Virus record (IMG/VR): IMGVR_UViG_3300023104_000009
Span: 1 to 40,817 of that record
Source of the DNA: a virus
DNA length: 40,817 nucleotides
Reading direction: 5' to 3' (one strand)
Shown here: piece by piece, positions 1,921 to 39,506 of the stretch
How the letters are laid out: every line of letters begins with the position of its first letter
How positions within the stretch are numbered: position 1 is the first letter of the stretch
Program-made: the position numbers and the translations under genes
Notes under the pieces: model-generated
Seen by the model: the letters and a program-made list of their open reading frames with translations, nothing else
Databases searched by the model: none
Told to the model about the DNA's origin: nothing

Positions 1921-2084
1921 TTACCATTTCAGAGGCTGACCTTGCGCAGCTCCGCCATGCTTACAGTCAGCTCAAGCTGGGTTGCGTCATTAATCAAGCC
2001 GTGTTCGCAGAGGGCTTGCTCGCGCCGATTATCCGAAAAGCGGAGCGGCAGCAAAACGCCCCATTGCGTGCGGAGTTGACTTAA
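1917..2084 (+). CDS. Small hypothetical protein between terL and portal (55 aa)
   Basis: The GTG at 1917 shares the terL stop (GTGA), and the TAA at 2082-2084 shares its last base with the portal ATG, so the frame is linked on both sides. The protein is a short helical sequence (SEADLAQLRHAYSQL) without membrane segments. No family is recognised. A packaging or head-assembly accessory role is only an inference from position. Confidence 0.62.
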   Translation: MITISEADLAQLRHAYSQLKLGCVINQAVFAEGLLAPIIRKAERQQNAPLRAELT

Positions 2085-4051
2085 TGACCACGATGTTCCC
2101 GCTTGAAGATGACGAAAACCGCGATGGTATTGCGCTATCCGGGGCCACGCAGACCATTCCCGAATACATCAAGGGCGAAGCGCCATCTATCACTGTGCTG
2201 CGCGCACGGTTTGATGAGGCCCGCTCTGATCCGCAGGGAGCGCGCACCAAAGCGCAGACGGCCAGGGACTATTACGACGGCCCGAAACAGCTTAGCTCCA
2301 CCATCCGATCAGTTCTCGAATCCCGTGGCCAGCCTCGCAATTATACCAACCGCATCCGGCCTGCCATCAATGGTATCCTCGGCGTATTGGAGGCTGGCAG
2401 GCGAGACCCCCGCTGCCTTCCTCGCAACCCAGACGACGAAGACAGCGCAGACGTAGCCACCAAGACGCTGCGGTTTATCAACGATAAGTCGCGGTTCAAC
2501 GACACGCAGATGGACGTGGCGGAGAACTTCTTCATCGAGGGTGCCGGCGCTGCCATTATCGAGATGGATGGCGAGGATGTCGCCGTTACCCAGATCCGCT
2601 GGGAGGAGTTCTACTACGATCCCTATGCGCGTCGTTCCGATCTGAAGGACGCGCGGTATATGGGCATCGCCAAGTGGATGGATGCTTCTGCACTCAATTC
2701 TCGGTATCGTGCCCAGCTTGCCGAGATCGGGGATGTCATGGCCCCGCACGGCATGTCCTCCGACGCCTTCGAGGATCGTGGCGGCAATGCGTGCTGGGTG
2801 GATGCCAAGCGTCGGCGCGTGATGCTGATCGAAGAATACGCCATGGATGGCGGCGAGTGGAAGCGCATTGTCTATGTGGCGGCTGGCGTACTGGAATACG
2901 ACACCTCGCCGTATCTGGATGATAAGGGCCGTCCCTGCTGCCCGATCGAGGGCACGCGCTGTTACGTTAATCGCGATAATGATTCTTATGGCGCTGTCGA
3001 TGACATGATCCCCATCCAGGATGAGGTGAACGCCAGCCGGTCGCGCTCGCTGCATTTGATGAACAGCCGGCAGGTGCAGCAGACCGACCCGATGGCCCCG
3101 CCGATCGATGCTGAAATTGCACGGATCGAAGCCGCGAAGGCTGACGGCGTTATTCCGCCGGGCTGGGGCATCGTGCCCACCAGCGAGATGACCCAGGCAA
3201 ACATGGTTCGGATGCAGGAGGCCAAGAGTGAAATCGAGCGCATGGCTCCTACCCCTTTGGCGCGCGACCTTGAAAGTGGATCTGCGGTCTCAGGCCGTGC
3301 GCGACAGGTCAGCCAGCAGGCAGGGTTGTCAGAGCTTGCGCGCCCACTTGGTCGCCTCCACGGCTGGGTGCTGCGATGCTATGAGCAAATGTGGAACCGG
3401 GCGCGTCAATATTGGACCGACCCGATGTGGGTCCGCGTCACCGACAACCTGAAGGCACCGGAGTTCCTGAAGGTCAACGAGCCGGTTATGGGGCCGACGA
3501 TGTTGCCTGTTGCTGATCCGCAGACCGGACAGCCGATGGTCGATCCTATGACCGGCCAACCCCAGATGATGCAGGGTATTGGCCCCGTGGACGTGAAGAA
3601 CCGCCTTGCCGACATGGATATGGACATCATCCTTGACCAGGATGACGATACCGCGTCGCTCCAGCAGGAGGTTTTCGCGGAGCTGATGCAGCTCTTGGCC
3701 CCATCGGGCGGGTTGCCGGCCATCTTCTCGCCAGAGTTCGAGGTGGCGCTAGAGATCAGCCCCATGTCTGACAAGCGCCGGATCATGGAGACGATCAAGA
3801 CGAAGCGCGAGGAGCGCGATCAGTCGCAGGTTGTGCAGATGCAGCAGCAATTGGCGCAGTTGCAGGCGCAGTTGGAGGCCAAGCAGGAGCTTACGGCTGC
3901 GGAGACTGGCGCATCAATCGAGTTGAAGGCGGCGCAGACGGCGGCGACCTATGCCACGGCGAATAAGACGATGGTGGAGACGGCCGGCAAGGAAGTGGAG
4001 TTGACGGCGCGGGATCCGTTTGCGGAACCTGAAGATCAAGGCGGGGAATAG
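2084..4051 (+). CDS. Portal protein, P22-like
   Basis: The 655-residue protein resembles the P22 portal family (P22 gp1, about 725 residues), which forms the dodecameric ring at one capsid vertex where terminase docks and the tail assembles. The N-terminal third has the family pattern of an YYDG segment, RNYTNRIRP and RRDPRCLPRNPDDE, followed by FIEGAGAAIIE and WEEFYYDPYAR. Residues around 575-615 are a Gln-rich coiled coil (QSQVVQMQQQLAQLQAQ), likely part of the C-terminal barrel. It follows terL with one small gene between them and precedes the scaffold and coat genes. Confidence 0.92.
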   Translation: MTTMFPLEDDENRDGIALSGATQTIPEYIKGEAPSITVLRARFDEARSDPQGARTKAQTARDYYDGPKQLSSTIRSVLESRGQPRNYTNRIRPAINGILGVLEAGRRDPRCLPRNPDDEDSADVATKTLRFINDKSRFNDTQMDVAENFFIEGAGAAIIEMDGEDVAVTQIRWEEFYYDPYARRSDLKDARYMGIAKWMDASALNSRYRAQLAEIGDVMAPHGMSSDAFEDRGGNACWVDAKRRRVMLIEEYAMDGGEWKRIVYVAAGVLEYDTSPYLDDKGRPCCPIEGTRCYVNRDNDSYGAVDDMIPIQDEVNASRSRSLHLMNSRQVQQTDPMAPPIDAEIARIEAAKADGVIPPGWGIVPTSEMTQANMVRMQEAKSEIERMAPTPLARDLESGSAVSGRARQVSQQAGLSELARPLGRLHGWVLRCYEQMWNRARQYWTDPMWVRVTDNLKAPEFLKVNEPVMGPTMLPVADPQTGQPMVDPMTGQPQMMQGIGPVDVKNRLADMDMDIILDQDDDTASLQQEVFAELMQLLAPSGGLPAIFSPEFEVALEISPMSDKRRIMETIKTKREERDQSQVVQMQQQLAQLQAQLEAKQELTAAETGASIELKAAQTAATYATANKTMVETAGKEVELTARDPFAEPEDQGGE

Positions 4052-5161: not shown

Positions 5162-6322
5162 GTGGCAGAAGTCGTACTAGCAACCGCGCTCCAGGTTCAG
5201 AAGTGGAGCGACAATCTTGCGCGGGAATATATCCGTTCCAACGCGCTTTTCCCGTATATGGGCACCGCCAACACCAGCATTATCCGCATGCTGCGCGAGT
5301 TCAGCACGAAGGGTGGCGACACCATCAACTTCCCGCTGGTCACGCGGATTAAGGGTCGCGGCGTCAAGGGCGCTGAAGTCCTGAAGGGCAACGAAACCGA
5401 CCTCGGCCTGTTCAACACGGCGGTTTCCGTCGATTGGCGGCGTAATGCGGTCAAGGTGCCGAAGTCCACGCAGCTTCGCACCGAGATCAACATTCTCGAC
5501 GAGGCCAAGCCGCAGCTCAAGGAATGGTGCCAGGAAGCACTCCGCGATGATGTCATCATCGAGATGGCGGCAGTCGTGGTTCCGGGCACGCTGGACGCAC
5601 AGGGTTTGCCGGGCACCGATTCGACGGTAACCTATCAGCAGTCCAACGCTGCACAGCGCAACGCATTCCTGGTCAACAACAGCGACCGTATCGTGATGGG
5701 CAACGCGCGTGCCAACACGGCGTCTGGCAACTGGGCAACCAGCCTCGGCAACGTGTCGATCGCAACGGGGCAGTCTTCGGCAGCGCATATTCGCCTGCTC
5801 AAGACGATCGCCAAGAACGCTGGCGGCGTGGCTGTTACGGCCACCGGCTTCACCACCAACGTCCGCCCGTATAAGGCCGACATGGAAGCGGGCCGCGAGT
5901 GGTTCGTCTATTTCGTCGGTAGCCGCGAGTTTTCGGTTATCGGCCAAGACCCCACCATCGTTAGCATCAACACCTCGGCTCGCCCGCGCGAAGCTGGCGG
6001 CGTGGACAGCAACCCGCTGTTCCAGGATGGCGACCTGATGTATCAGGGCGTCATCATCCGCGAAGTGCCGGAGCTGGACCAGCTTCTCCTTCCGGGCGCT
6101 GGTGGTTCGGGTGCGGATCTGGCCATGGGCTTCTTCTGCGGTCAGTCGGCTATCGCGGTCGGCATCGGTCAGTCGCCCACGCCTCGCGTCGATTATGACG
6201 AAGATTACGGCTTCCGTCCGGCAGTCGCGATCGAGGAGCTGCGCGGAGTCAAGAAGACTTCGTTTGGCGGCGTCCAGTACGGCATGGTCACGTCGATCAC
6301 CGCCGTTCCGGTTCAGGCATAA
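5162..6322 (+). CDS. Major capsid (coat) protein
   Basis: The 386-residue protein resembles the N4-gp56/P22-coat group of HK97-fold major capsid proteins. Family-like features are the N-terminal LQVQKWSDNLAREYIRSNA, GGDTINFPLVTRI near residue 50 and the LFNTAVSVDWRRNAVKVPK segment near 85-105. It starts with GTG just after the scaffold gene and is followed by two small head genes. Length and position match P22 gene 5 (430 residues). Confidence 0.9.
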   Translation: MAEVVLATALQVQKWSDNLAREYIRSNALFPYMGTANTSIIRMLREFSTKGGDTINFPLVTRIKGRGVKGAEVLKGNETDLGLFNTAVSVDWRRNAVKVPKSTQLRTEINILDEAKPQLKEWCQEALRDDVIIEMAAVVVPGTLDAQGLPGTDSTVTYQQSNAAQRNAFLVNNSDRIVMGNARANTASGNWATSLGNVSIATGQSSAAHIRLLKTIAKNAGGVAVTATGFTTNVRPYKADMEAGREWFVYFVGSREFSVIGQDPTIVSINTSARPREAGGVDSNPLFQDGDLMYQGVIIREVPELDQLLLPGAGGSGADLAMGFFCGQSAIAVGIGQSPTPRVDYDEDYGFRPAVAIEELRGVKKTSFGGVQYGMVTSITAVPVQA

Positions 6323-35097: not shown

Positions 35098-35145
35098 TGC
35101 CTGACTTTACCCTACCATATATTGCGCCTGAGGCAAGCCTGTGAA
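35098..35145 (+). CDS. Possible 15-residue leader peptide before primase-helicase
   Basis: An ATG at 35098 with a good site (GGGAGAGGG) opens a frame of 15 codons (PDFTLPYIAPEASL) whose TGA overlaps the GTG start of the primase-helicase. The GTG itself has no clear ribosome site, so translation of the primase probably depends on this leader by coupling. Confidence 0.45.
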
Positions 35146-37312
35146 GCGGCTTATCGAGATCGGGGCCATAGATATTGAGGCGATCAAGGACCAGTTCCCA
35201 CTGGCTGATTTTGTCGCCAGTACCGTCGATCTGAAACGCAAGGGGCGGGCCTTGGTTGGCCTCTGCCCGTTCCACGGTGAAAAGACGCCGAGCTTCACGG
35301 TGTACCCAAGCGATCAGCGCTTCCATTGCTATGGCTGTGCGGCGGACGGCGATCTGTTCGACTTTGCCGAGCATATGAACAAGTGGACGATCCGAGAAAC
35401 GGCCGAGCATTTGGGCATGGGCACCATCCCAACCTACACGCCCGACCGGATCGAGGAGATCCGCAACAAGCGCCTCGCGGCCGAAACCAAGGACGCAGAG
35501 GACCGTGCAAAGGTCATCACCCAATCGCAGGAAAGGTGGGACGCGGCTGTGCCCGTCATCCACCACCCGTATCTGGCCGCTAAGGGCATCCAGGCGCACG
35601 GTGCGAGGATCGAGGCAGACGGAACGCTCCTTACCCCGATCATGGGCCAGAACGGCGCTATCCAGTGCGTGCAAGGCATATCCGAGGAGGGCGAGAAACT
35701 GTTTCCCTTCCGTGGCACGGTATCGGGCGGCTTCCATATCATGGGCGGCAAGGTGGCCAAGGCGACCGAGCCTGTGATCCTGTGCGAAGGCTTCGCCACC
35801 GCTGCCTCTATCCAGGAGGCCACCGGCCGCACGGTGATCTGTACCTATAACGGCGACAATATGGTGAAGGTGGCCCGGTTCTTCGCTGATCGCTACCCCG
35901 GCCGGCAATGGCTGGTAGCAGGCGACGACGACCATTCCAATCAATCCAATACTGGATCGATTAAAGCCGCTGAAGCTGCCGCCGTCCTGAGTTGTCCGTA
36001 TGTCCTGGCTGCGCACGACGGAGACGACGCCAACAGCGACTTCAACGATATGGCCAAGCTTTATGGGCTGGAGGCTGTGAAAACGTTGATTGTTGATGGC
36101 GTGACACCCGAGGGGGCGGAGCAGCAACCGGAAGATCCAAACGACTTCAAGCCTACCCCTTGGGTTGCAATAGACCCTTCTTCCATCCCGCCGCGTGAAT
36201 GGCTGTTCGGTGATATTCTCGCCCGCAGTTTCGTGTCCGTGCTGGTGGCTCCGCCGGGCGTGGGTAAATCGATCCTGACGATTGAAGCGGCGATATCGAT
36301 CGTACTTAAGCGGGATCTGGGGCCGTTCAAGGCCCACGAAAAATCCAAGGTCTGGATCTTCAATAACGAAGACCCGAGACAAGAGCTTAACCGCCGCATC
36401 TCCGCTTTCATTCTCGCCAACGATCTGGACGCTGCCAAGGTGGCGGAAGGGCTGTTCGTGGACAGTGGAGAGGAGCGGCATCTTCTGATCGCCAAGTATG
36501 ATGAGGATCGCAACGTTATGCGGATGCCGGTTGTGGACCGTTTGATAGAGCATATCGAGCGCAACCAGATCGGGCTTCTCATAGTCGATCCGTTCATCGA
36601 GACGCATGGTGTCAATGAGAACGACAACGGGGCCATAAGCGCTGTCGCCCGCATGTACCGAGAGGTAGCGCAGAAGACCAACTGCGCTGTCTGGCTAGTG
36701 CACCACACCCGCAAGACACCCGCAGGCGCTAGCGCATCCGCTCCCGGTGACAGCGACGCTGGGCGTGGCGCAAGTGCTCTGGGTGGTGTTGCCCGGTTCA
36801 CGGCCACCTTGTTTAATATGAGCAAGGAGGACGCCAAGGCGTTGGCGATCGAGGAGGAGGACCGGCATCGGTATGTCCGGTTTGACGACGGAAAGGCTAA
36901 CCTGAAGATGCGCACGGATCAATGCATCTGGTGGCGCAAGCGCTCTGTTTCGCTTGGCAATGAGCGCGGCTTCAGGCCCGCTGACAGCATGGGTGTGCTG
37001 GAATGGGCGGACATGACGGACGCCACGACAGCAGCCCAGGAGCAGCGCCGGGAGCAATGGCAGGCCATCGCCTATGTGCTTCAGGGGTTGGTAGAGGAAG
37101 GCGAGGAAATCACCCTCAACTCCGCTGTCGCCAAGCTGGACGGGGTGGCTCGCGACCAGGGTTTTTCATCCGGTAGAACCCTGGACAGGTTCCTTAAAGA
37201 CAGCCTCACCAAGCCGTATCGGCAGGGTGCGTGGATGCTCACCCTGACCGAAAAGACGCAAGGAAACGGGCGTTTCTGGATCGGAAAAAGGAGGGCAAAG
37301 GCATGGGAGTAA
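35141..37312 (+). CDS. Primase-helicase, CHC2 zinc finger + Toprim + RecA-like ATPase
   Basis: The 723-residue protein starts with a CHC2 primase zinc finger (Cys42, His45, Cys63, Cys66). A Toprim-like domain follows, with VILCEGFATAAS (Glu216) and VAGDDDHSNQ (Asp262-264). The C-terminal RepA/RecA-type ATPase has Walker A APPGVGKS (370-377) and Walker B LLIVDPF (Asp483), then the VWLVHHTRKTP sensor. It would make primers and unwind DNA at the phage fork. It starts with GTG coupled to a leader peptide. No DNA polymerase gene is seen, so the host enzyme is probably recruited. Confidence 0.93.
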   Translation: MKRLIEIGAIDIEAIKDQFPLADFVASTVDLKRKGRALVGLCPFHGEKTPSFTVYPSDQRFHCYGCAADGDLFDFAEHMNKWTIRETAEHLGMGTIPTYTPDRIEEIRNKRLAAETKDAEDRAKVITQSQERWDAAVPVIHHPYLAAKGIQAHGARIEADGTLLTPIMGQNGAIQCVQGISEEGEKLFPFRGTVSGGFHIMGGKVAKATEPVILCEGFATAASIQEATGRTVICTYNGDNMVKVARFFADRYPGRQWLVAGDDDHSNQSNTGSIKAAEAAAVLSCPYVLAAHDGDDANSDFNDMAKLYGLEAVKTLIVDGVTPEGAEQQPEDPNDFKPTPWVAIDPSSIPPREWLFGDILARSFVSVLVAPPGVGKSILTIEAAISIVLKRDLGPFKAHEKSKVWIFNNEDPRQELNRRISAFILANDLDAAKVAEGLFVDSGEERHLLIAKYDEDRNVMRMPVVDRLIEHIERNQIGLLIVDPFIETHGVNENDNGAISAVARMYREVAQKTNCAVWLVHHTRKTPAGASASAPGDSDAGRGASALGGVARFTATLFNMSKEDAKALAIEEEDRHRYVRFDDGKANLKMRTDQCIWWRKRSVSLGNERGFRPADSMGVLEWADMTDATTAAQEQRREQWQAIAYVLQGLVEEGEEITLNSAVAKLDGVARDQGFSSGRTLDRFLKDSLTKPYRQGAWMLTLTEKTQGNGRFWIGKRRAKAWE

Positions 37313-37320
37313 ATGGCTTC

Positions 37321-37514
37321 GTCCGCAGGTTCGCACGCATGTCGTGCGGACTGCGGACCCCTACGAAAACTGCCGTTTTTTGGGTCGAAATGGTAGGGTC
37401 CGCACGCACTTTCCAAAAACAGTGCGAACCCCCCTTAAAAAATGGCGGTTTTCTGCGGACCTCGCACGTCCGCACGTCCGCACCCCTTATAGGGGTTGGC
37501 CGCTTGTGCGGACC
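37321..37514. repeat. Iteron-like cluster, candidate replication origin
   Basis: The 8-mer GTCCGCAC or its complement occurs exactly five times: + at 37398, 37468 and 37476; minus at 37344 and 37506. There are also five one-mismatch copies (37321, 37329, 37351, 37422, 37453). Also present are a near-complementary pair around AAAACTGCCGTTTTTT (37366 region) and AAAAAATGGCGGTTTT (37437 region), a hairpin GCGGACCCCTAC/GTAGGGTCCGC (37353-37403), and a palindrome ACCCCT-tat-AGGGGT (37482-37496). The 260-bp gap (37313-37572) otherwise holds no convincing gene. Position after the primase-helicase fits an origin. Confidence 0.6.
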
Positions 37515-37572
37515 CTATCAAGGGCCGGTCTGAAAGCATCGAACATTCTGATATTTTGAAAGGAGAGACGAG

Positions 37573-38426: not shown

Positions 38427-38455
38427 TTGACACCCACCCAAACCGGGGGTAGAGG
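38427..38455 (+). promoter_or_regulatory. Early-type promoter 1 (TTGACACCCA family)
   Basis: TTGACA at 38427-38432, 17-bp spacer beginning CCCA, then TAGAGG at 38450-38455. CATCAACCCAA follows at 38461, as after promoter 2. The first gene start is 38488. Confidence 0.75.
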
Positions 38456-38822: not shown

Positions 38823-38975
38823 ATGGACAACTACAACGCTTTCAACCGCCTCGACAGCTACCCGGCTTACTCGCTTGACGAGCTGAAGGCTGCGGTTGCT
38901 GCCGGCCACAACAACGTCAAGATGCTGGCCGAGATCGCTTACCGCGAAGCCCGCATCCTTGAGGCGACGGAGTGA
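38823..38975 (+). CDS. Small hypothetical protein (50 aa)
   Basis: The ATG at 38823 is followed by a short protein with aromatic residues at the front (DNYNAFNRLDSYPAY) and a long helix behind (DELKAAVAAGHNNVKMLAEIAYREARIL). The TGA shares a base with the next ATG. No family is recognised. It is directly downstream of promoter 2. Confidence 0.62.
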   Translation: MDNYNAFNRLDSYPAYSLDELKAAVAAGHNNVKMLAEIAYREARILEATE

Positions 38976-39163
38976 TGGAAAGCCTCGCAGTGTTGTTTCC
39001 TTGCGGTCACCCTCGCTCCGAATGGAATAGCAAGGCCCGCGGCGATCGCCCCACAGGCGTCAAGTGCCGGATCTGTGCGAACGAGCGGGCAAGGGTGTCG
39101 ATTGCGAAGAAAAGATTGCGAGAGCGCGATTTGGCTGTTGACACCCAATCAATCGCGTCCTAA
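38975..39163 (+). CDS. Zinc-ribbon-like protein (62 aa)
   Basis: The ATG at 38975 overlaps the preceding stop. CGHPRSEWN near the N-terminus and VKCRICANERARV (about residues 29-41) form a Cys/His-Cys-Cys set that could bind one zinc; a basic helical tail follows (SIAKKRLRERDL). A nucleic-acid-binding role is plausible. The 3' end of the gene contains promoter 3. Confidence 0.62.
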   Translation: MESLAVLFPCGHPRSEWNSKARGDRPTGVKCRICANERARVSIAKKRLRERDLAVDTQSIAS

Positions 39164-39166
39164 AGA
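39138..39166 (+). promoter_or_regulatory. Early-type promoter 3 (TTGACACCCA family), drives the structured element
   Basis: TTGACA at 39138-39143, 17-bp spacer beginning CCCA, then TAAAGA at 39161-39166. The predicted start of transcription (about 39172-39174) coincides with the first base of the 14-bp stem of the element at 39172-39300. Confidence 0.75.
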
Positions 39167-39171
39167 TCAGT

Positions 39172-39300
39172 TGTCGAGCCGGTTAGGGCTAGAGGAAGCG
39201 GGAAGACGCTTGGAGGACCGGTTAACCGAAAGGTTCAAGTCCAAGGGCGAAACGGGGGTCAGGCCCCCTACCAAGCGACCAGCGGTTAACCGGCTCGACA
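39172..39300 (+). ncRNA. Candidate structured RNA closed by a perfect 14-bp stem
   Basis: TGTCGAGCCGGTTA (39172-39185) is the exact complement of TAACCGGCTCGACA (39287-39300). Inside, CGCTTGG (39207-39213) pairs with CCAAGCG (39271-39277). That helix encloses a GGAC/GTCC stem (39215-39242) topped by AACC-GAAA-GGTT (39224-39235, a GNRA tetraloop) and a GGGGG-TCAGG-CCCCC hairpin (39254-39268). AAGCG (39196-39200) can compete for CGCTT, so two folds are possible. The 157-bp gap has no convincing gene, and the next ATG at 39321 has its ribosome site just outside the outer stem. It may be a free RNA or a regulatory leader. Confidence 0.65.
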
Positions 39301-39320
39301 CACAAGCAGGGGGTAGAGAG

Positions 39321-39506
39321 ATGGCTAGTGGCACCTGGAGCGAGTACGTTGCCAACCGTAAGGCTTATCTCGAAATGATCGCCTACGAGCGGTCGAGAGG
39401 CCGCAAAAAGTACCTCCACAATCTCCGCTTAGACATGGTGGCTTGCCGAGCCACTCATTATGCCAAAGGTCGTCAGCGTCGTTATAATCTGGATTTTTCC
39501 CGTTGA
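39321..39506 (+). CDS. Small basic protein (61 aa) downstream of the structured element
   Basis: The ATG at 39321 follows GGGGGTAGAGAG, directly after the stem-closed element. The product is rich in Arg, Lys and Tyr (YVANRKAYLEMIAYERSRGRKKYLHNLRLDM and AKGRQRRYNLDFSR), suggesting nucleic-acid binding. The last bases overlap the -35 region of promoter 4. It might be regulated by, or bind, the preceding RNA. Confidence 0.6.
   Translation: MASGTWSEYVANRKAYLEMIAYERSRGRKKYLHNLRLDMVACRATHYAKGRQRRYNLDFSR

Follow-up and report, generated by a model that had tools for sequence, protein, structure and literature searches.

A conserved 129-nt structured RNA preceding a small basic-protein gene in two different phages

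The window, by which we mean the whole stretch of DNA analysed here, corresponds to a 40,817-base virus record of IMG/VR, which carries genes for the large subunit of the terminase (505-1920), the portal (2084-4051), the major head protein (5162-6322) and a primase-helicase (35141-37312). The named phages with the closest portal matches are the Pseudanabaena phages Pam1 and Pan3 (36-38% identity). Among cellular carriers of a related portal the nearest is the sphingomonad Rhizorhabdus (53%), and the host of the window phage is therefore likely to be alphaproteobacterial. At the very start of the record (1-95) lies a 43-bp perfect inverted repeat, copying part of the small-terminase gene from the other end, which is an assembly fold-back artefact. 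The start of the record overlaps its end inside that same small-terminase gene, so the genome is nearly complete, and its true form is about 40.7 kb, self-overlapping in the small-terminase gene.

The 129-nt element with which we are concerned here (39172-39300) sits among a run of small genes, with the replication genes on one side and the terminase on the other. Upstream, at 38975-39163, is the gene of a small cysteine-containing protein (FPCGH...CRICANERARV) for which Pfam has no family and which is 84% and 50% identical in its relatives at L003 1951-2094 and L018 3804-3926. Four promoters of the TTGACACCCA kind are found in this region, at 38427, 38762, 39138 and 39503. The one that precedes the element has its -35 box TTGACA, a part of TTGACACCCA, at 39138-39143 and its -10 box TAAAGA at 39161-39166, both on the plus strand and separated by a 17-nt spacer. 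The preliminary description of this DNA had the RNA starting on the first base of the element; the promoter is indeed present, while counting from the -10 box would place +1 at about G39173, the second base. More generally, promoters of the family TTGACACCC, whose -10 boxes are weak (often with GGGGGTAGAG there) and set off by a 17-nt spacer, drive small genes in both the window phage and L003, where members occur at 1242 and 1714. These two also share inverted repeats directly 3' of the primase gene (37320-37530 in the window, with copies of GTCCGCAC, and L003 1107-1199, with TGTCCCTTACGCACG, 15 bp), which we regard as origin-like; the L003 repeat was also considered as a possible relative of the element and set aside as unrelated, lying away from a promoter start.

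The element is closed by a perfect 14-bp inverted repeat (39172-39185 and 39287-39300) enclosing 101 nt, just as first described, and in the RNA a fifteenth pair, G-U, extends this stem, P1, to arms at 39186 and 39286 (39172-39186 and 39286-39300, plus strand). In simulated sequence of the same dinucleotide make-up, 0.15 inverted repeats of at least 14 bp with a spacer of 10-250 are expected per 40.8 kb; by itself the stem is mildly unusual only, and its place at the predicted transcription start, in a non-coding gap, adds weight. The fold energy of the whole element is -60 kcal/mol (z -4.3), with none of 200 shuffles as good, and its z-score is the best among 408 windows of 129 nt save for the fold-back artefact at 1-95, a ranking for which the element was tested in register and the other windows were not.

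In the best fold the RNA is a three-way junction carried on a long irregular closing helix. Beyond P1 the helix continues on the plus strand with 39188-39202 (GCU-AGA-GG-AA-GC-G-GG) pairing with parts of 39271-39283 (CC-AA-GC-GA-CC-AGC), in the steps GCU/AGC, GG/CC, GC/GC and GG/CC with purine-rich internal loops between them, and it ends in a junction with two arms. Arm 2 (39207-39249) is built from P2 (39207-39210/39246-39249), P3 (39215-39218/39239-39242) and a GNRA-capped hairpin, AACC-GAAA-GGTT (39224-39235); the other arm is the hairpin P4, GGGGGU-CAG-GCCCCC (39254-39268). Both the GNRA-capped stem and the GGGGG/CCCCC hairpin had been pointed out beforehand, and both are kept in the homolog described below; a long-range 7-bp helix proposed alongside them (39207-39213/39271-39277) is not part of the best fold, and two of its seven pairs are broken in the homolog. 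The stretch GGTTCAAGTCC at 39232-39242 is the same in the two RNAs; it is shaped like a tRNA T-loop with two closing G-C pairs, a pairing that competes with the GNRA hairpin. ARAGORN finds no tRNA or tmRNA in the window, although GGTTCAAGTCC resembles a T-arm.

By codon statistics there is no coding signal in any of the six frames of the element: the best plus-strand and minus-strand frames score -0.43 and -0.18 bits per codon, against a mean of +0.30 and a 5th percentile of +0.02 for true genes. One plus-strand frame stays open throughout. The minus strand, too, has a good fold (z -4.6); however, the conserved G-U pairs (columns 15/115, 39/75, 54/63 and 88/92) become A-C mismatches there, and these pairs together with the direction of the promoter mean that the RNA fits the plus strand only.

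With a short piece of the purine-rich strand, AGAGGAAGNGGGAAGAC, as the pattern, a scan of IMG/VR returned nine contigs, of which a one-sequence covariance model made from the window element alone picked a single one, IMGVR_UViG_3300020045_004793 (L107 in what follows), at 1102-1230 with 140.8 bits and an E-value of 1.9e-26. The two elements are equal in length and align without a gap, 117 of their 129 positions being identical, and the L107 RNA folded alone adopts the same MFE structure (-53.2 kcal/mol, z -4.1). Both arms of P1 and both sides of its extension are unchanged. All 43 pairs are standard in both RNAs, so the 12 substitutions break none of them. Three pairs are changed on both sides: 38/76 in P2 (C38-G76 to U38-A76) and 85/95 and 87/93 in P4, which reads GGAGAU-UAG-GUCUCC in L107. 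One further pair, in arm 2, goes from A-U in the window to G-U in L107. When the 12 substitutions were placed at random, zero broken pairs resulted in 1e-4 of trials over the whole element and in 5e-4 of trials when they were confined to the variable core. The shuffle control of the pair-change test gave 80/500, a test with little power for two sequences, and in this family of only two members P1 is invariant, so that covariation is uninformative on P1 itself.

The promoter is preserved along with the RNA: the same TTGACA box stands at the same distance from the L107 element (at 1068), and a -10 box TAAAGT follows with the 17-nt spacer and the 5-nt gap to the element seen in the window, giving TTGACA-17-TAAAG(A/T) as the promoter common to both loci. 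Homologous phages without compensatory changes had been named in advance as the observation that would tell against a structured RNA, and L107 turned out to have three compensatory pairs and none broken. The original suggestion of a new structured RNA at a transcription start thus finds strong support in L107, an independent homolog in which pairs have changed in a compensatory way and the spacing of the promoter is kept, and we hold 39172-39300 to be, very probably, a real conserved structured RNA of phages. Other details fared less well. The palindrome CGGTTAACCG does occur twice in the window element, but its first copy reads CGGTTAGCCG in L107, and the competing helices named at the outset are not conserved there.

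The gene that follows encodes a basic protein of 61 amino acids (39321-39506, plus strand; pI 10.3, net charge about +9), predicted to form a helical hairpin. It begins 20 nt downstream of the element, and its Shine-Dalgarno sequence, AGGGGG (39308-39313, plus strand), lies outside the folded RNA. No terminator is predicted between the RNA and the gene; therefore the element is probably transcribed at least as the leader of the basic-protein mRNA. L107 has a homologous gene in the corresponding place (1255-1455; 36% identity, E 9e-10), encoding 66 amino acids with a pI of 10.7, and R13, K14, R24, R43, H46, Y47, R53 and Y55 are kept in both proteins. Neither protein has a Pfam or PHROG family above cut-off, and Foldseek gave no structural match to the model of the 61-residue protein, which is of modest confidence (mean pLDDT 68).

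Of particular interest is how differently the RNA and the gene have changed. Only 20 of 60 third codon positions (33%) and 4 of 13 four-fold sites are identical between the two basic-protein genes, which is close to saturation; upstream of the -35 box, 7 of 40 bases are common to both loci in an ungapped comparison, and in the promoter 20 of 34. The stem-side columns of the element (1-37 and 96-129), by contrast, are identical at 71 of 71 positions, and in both phages the limits of conservation fall within about 2 nt of the ends of P1. Near-saturated gene sites next to an RNA that has changed so little argue that strong selection acts on the letters of the RNA, beyond what pairing alone would call for. 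An RNA that remains nearly unchanged, each time before a fast-changing basic-protein gene, must be doing something important.

The two carriers are otherwise different. The terminase of the L107 phage belongs with phrog_3717 and phrog_2 and that of the window with phrog_38, and the L107 portal is of the DUF1073 kind; with different terminases and portals, L107 belongs to a different phage, and the shared order promoter - RNA - basic-protein gene represents a mobile cassette. (The portal ORF of the L107 phage, L158 3-1844 on the minus strand, extends into a domain that we take to resemble an Acb1-type 2H phosphoesterase, with HVTIAYS and HFSLDYS as what are presumably its motifs.) In IMGVR_UViG_3300017694_000009 (portal 66%), the nearest relative of the window phage that we found, the upstream gene is again present (84%) and a similar promoter leads into TTGTCG, but the leader and the gene that follow are others, an arrangement that fits exchange of cassettes at this site.

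Further members were sought widely. Rfam 15 gave no match above gathering scores in the whole window; at E <= 10 the element itself drew three matches of 10-13 bits, far below the gathering scores, and the L107 homolog one unrelated match of 10 bits. A 41-nt match to IMES-2 (RF02035) covers one GNRA hairpin and scores 10.5 bits where the gathering score is 54.7; it is absent from the L107 homolog, and we take it to be chance. A nucleotide search of INPHARED phages, PLSDB plasmids and E. coli genomes found nothing above chance, and blastn against 301 genomes of the Sphingomonad family gave five weak matches at chance level. The basic protein had no match in a protein search of phages and viral contigs, and the RNA is in none of the relatives gathered by portal (71 viral and 7 genome loci). 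Model R2 likewise had no match, under strict filters, in 401 genomes of the order and 385 of the class, which together are 786 alphaproteobacterial genome draws. The IMG/VR pattern scans need exact words and so pass over diverged members; the pattern GGTTCAAGTCC-N3-7-CGAAAC returned mostly tRNA genes. The 129-nt RNA is so far undescribed, and as a defined family it now has coordinates, a covariance model and a search pattern.

One candidate member, L018 9904-10014, fell from an E-value of 0.07 with model R1 to 3.3 with R2, and by eye it overlies a degenerate tRNA-like gene on the opposite strand; it was rejected. In these loci tRNA-like T-arms (GGCGGTTCGATCCCGCC, GCAGGTTCGATTCCTGC, GCGGGTTCAAATCCCGCC) are found on the minus strand at L018 9905-10060 and L019 10140-10250, between the portal and the next gene; they are not called by ARAGORN, and these regions are degenerate or unusual phage tRNA genes. 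At L020 5040-5432, behind a TAGACACCC-17-TATCTA promoter, no gene is obvious over about 370 nt just ahead of a small gene and the terminase; this gap has many hairpins, with a fold z of only -0.9, and is possibly another leader RNA.

From the charge of the protein and the neighbourhood of its gene, we consider it quite possible, if short of probable, that the 129-nt 5'-leader RNA is a binding platform of the co-encoded basic protein. The transcript would begin at about 39173 with 129 nt (give or take one) of folded RNA, followed by the basic-protein gene. The conserved irregular helix with its purine-rich loops, frozen in sequence, would form the specific binding platform, and its ligand would most likely be the co-inherited basic protein, predicted to be helical, whose gene starts 20 nt further on. 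RNA and protein might then form a ribonucleoprotein, or the protein might control its own mRNA through the leader, or both, while the long 5'-terminal stem, keeping the 5' end paired, should stabilise the RNA.

A fast-changing protein beside an RNA that hardly changes speaks against a simple one-to-one partnership. A conserved third partner, whether a host protein or a host RNA, fits as well, and with a conserved host partner it would be easier to understand that the RNA has changed less than the protein. We also suggest, tentatively, that this is a new family of phage ribonucleoprotein cassettes, in which a sequence-frozen 129-nt three-way-junction RNA and a fast-evolving basic protein pass as a unit between unrelated phages; the RNA would act on a conserved target in the host, with the basic helical-hairpin protein as its carrier or partner. 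There are few families of small phage RNAs, and almost none is known to move together with a protein gene of its own. In the present case the conservation of the RNA goes far beyond that of its saturated protein partner, in two phages that differ in their head and packaging genes, a pattern that points to a conserved host-side or RNA-side function. The homolog lifts what had been a hunch from a single sequence to a defined family.

The main rival to the binding-platform reading, possible though on balance rather unlikely, is a free trans-acting RNA: the 14-15 bp of P1 would be cut by a host RNase such as RNase III, and the released 129-nt RNA would act on a conserved host target, with the basic protein as neighbour or chaperone. 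Conservation whose limits in both phages lie no more than about 2 nt from the ends of P1 would suit such a product, and an invariant stem half beside a variable protein is what a conserved host partner would lead one to expect; yet neither a promoter nor a terminator separates the RNA from the gene, and the same gene lies alongside in two cases out of two.

An improbable alternative is a nascent-RNA antiterminator like the put sites of phage HK022, where RNA polymerase, once bound by the folded 5' end of its transcript, passes terminators. Like putL and putR, the element belongs to a phage transcript and folds at its 5' end or close to it, is strongly conserved in sequence and has few known members, and such an RNA needs in principle no nearby protein; putL likewise lies directly downstream of an early promoter (PMC9378689). 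However, put RNA has about 70 nt in two stem-loops (PMC9378689), against a 129-nt three-way junction with a helix closing its 5' and 3' ends, and model R2 has no match in the HK022 genome. Moreover, in L107 there is little downstream to be antiterminated: the basic-protein gene and one small ORF, and then a converging terminase gene.

Less probable again, and in our view very doubtful, is that P1 is simply a 5'-terminal stability stem and the remaining structure has no specific role. The stem does begin at the expected +1 in both phages, but for this purpose pairing alone would suffice, and yet the stem and the internal loops keep 71 of 71 bases and the distal arms maintain their pairing by compensation.

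The two-state leader put forward in the preliminary description, which would hide or free the ribosome binding site of the basic-protein gene, we consider very unlikely. The 3' strand of P4 (39265-39269) is complementary to the Shine-Dalgarno sequence at 39308-39313 (CCCCCU/AGGGGG), the same is true of L107 1195-1199 and its own Shine-Dalgarno sequence (CUCCU/AGGAG), and the complementarity changes together at one position. This is the only masking pairing found, however, and it costs 19-21 kcal/mol (18.9 and 21.5 kcal/mol against the best fold when forced); P4 would also fold before the Shine-Dalgarno sequence is made, an alternative helix of 11 bp with the 3' arm of P1 comes out 7.5-8.9 kcal/mol less favourable, and the competing helices on which the proposal relied are broken in the homolog. 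An element acting at the DNA level, either a MITE with 14-bp terminal repeats, as had been offered as an alternative, or paired repressor operators, would account for the perfect inverted repeat and the doubled CGGTTAACCG, but is scarcely credible, and the MITE is rejected, because promoter and downstream gene flank the RNA and are homologous on both sides in the two phages, which leaves no insertion there, and because compensatory and G-U-tolerant changes lie between the repeats and the first palindrome copy is not conserved.

Several known systems invite comparison with the RNA and its protein gene. Type III toxin-antitoxin RNAs are tandem-repeat RNAs standing before the gene of an endoribonuclease toxin; this possibility was rejected, since the element has no repeat unit and the 61- and 66-residue proteins no PHROG or Pfam family above cut-off. 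The pRNA of phage phi29, of about 120 nt, with paired 5' and 3' ends and a three-way junction, begins at its promoter, and the element resembles it in all these respects: size, paired ends, junction and promoter start. It differs in being linked to a basic-protein gene rather than to a packaging ATPase of the phi29 type, and model R2 has no match up to E 10 in phi29 1-2500, the left end with promoter A1. The ornate phage-associated RNAs GOLLD and ROOL (PMC12286853) are, like the element, conserved structured RNAs of phages or mobile elements, but they extend over several hundred nucleotides rather than 129, and the element is linked with a protein gene and matches no Rfam family. In ribosomal-protein operons, too, a structured autoregulatory leader stands directly before a gene whose product is a small basic or RNA-binding protein, as on rplJL, with its leader bound by L10(L12)4 (PMC4538822). 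Position before the gene and co-inheritance are found in both of our phages, with binding by the protein predicted, and no host RNA was found that the element mimics. In the phage cassette, unlike the ribosomal-protein leaders, it is the RNA that is conserved and not the protein.
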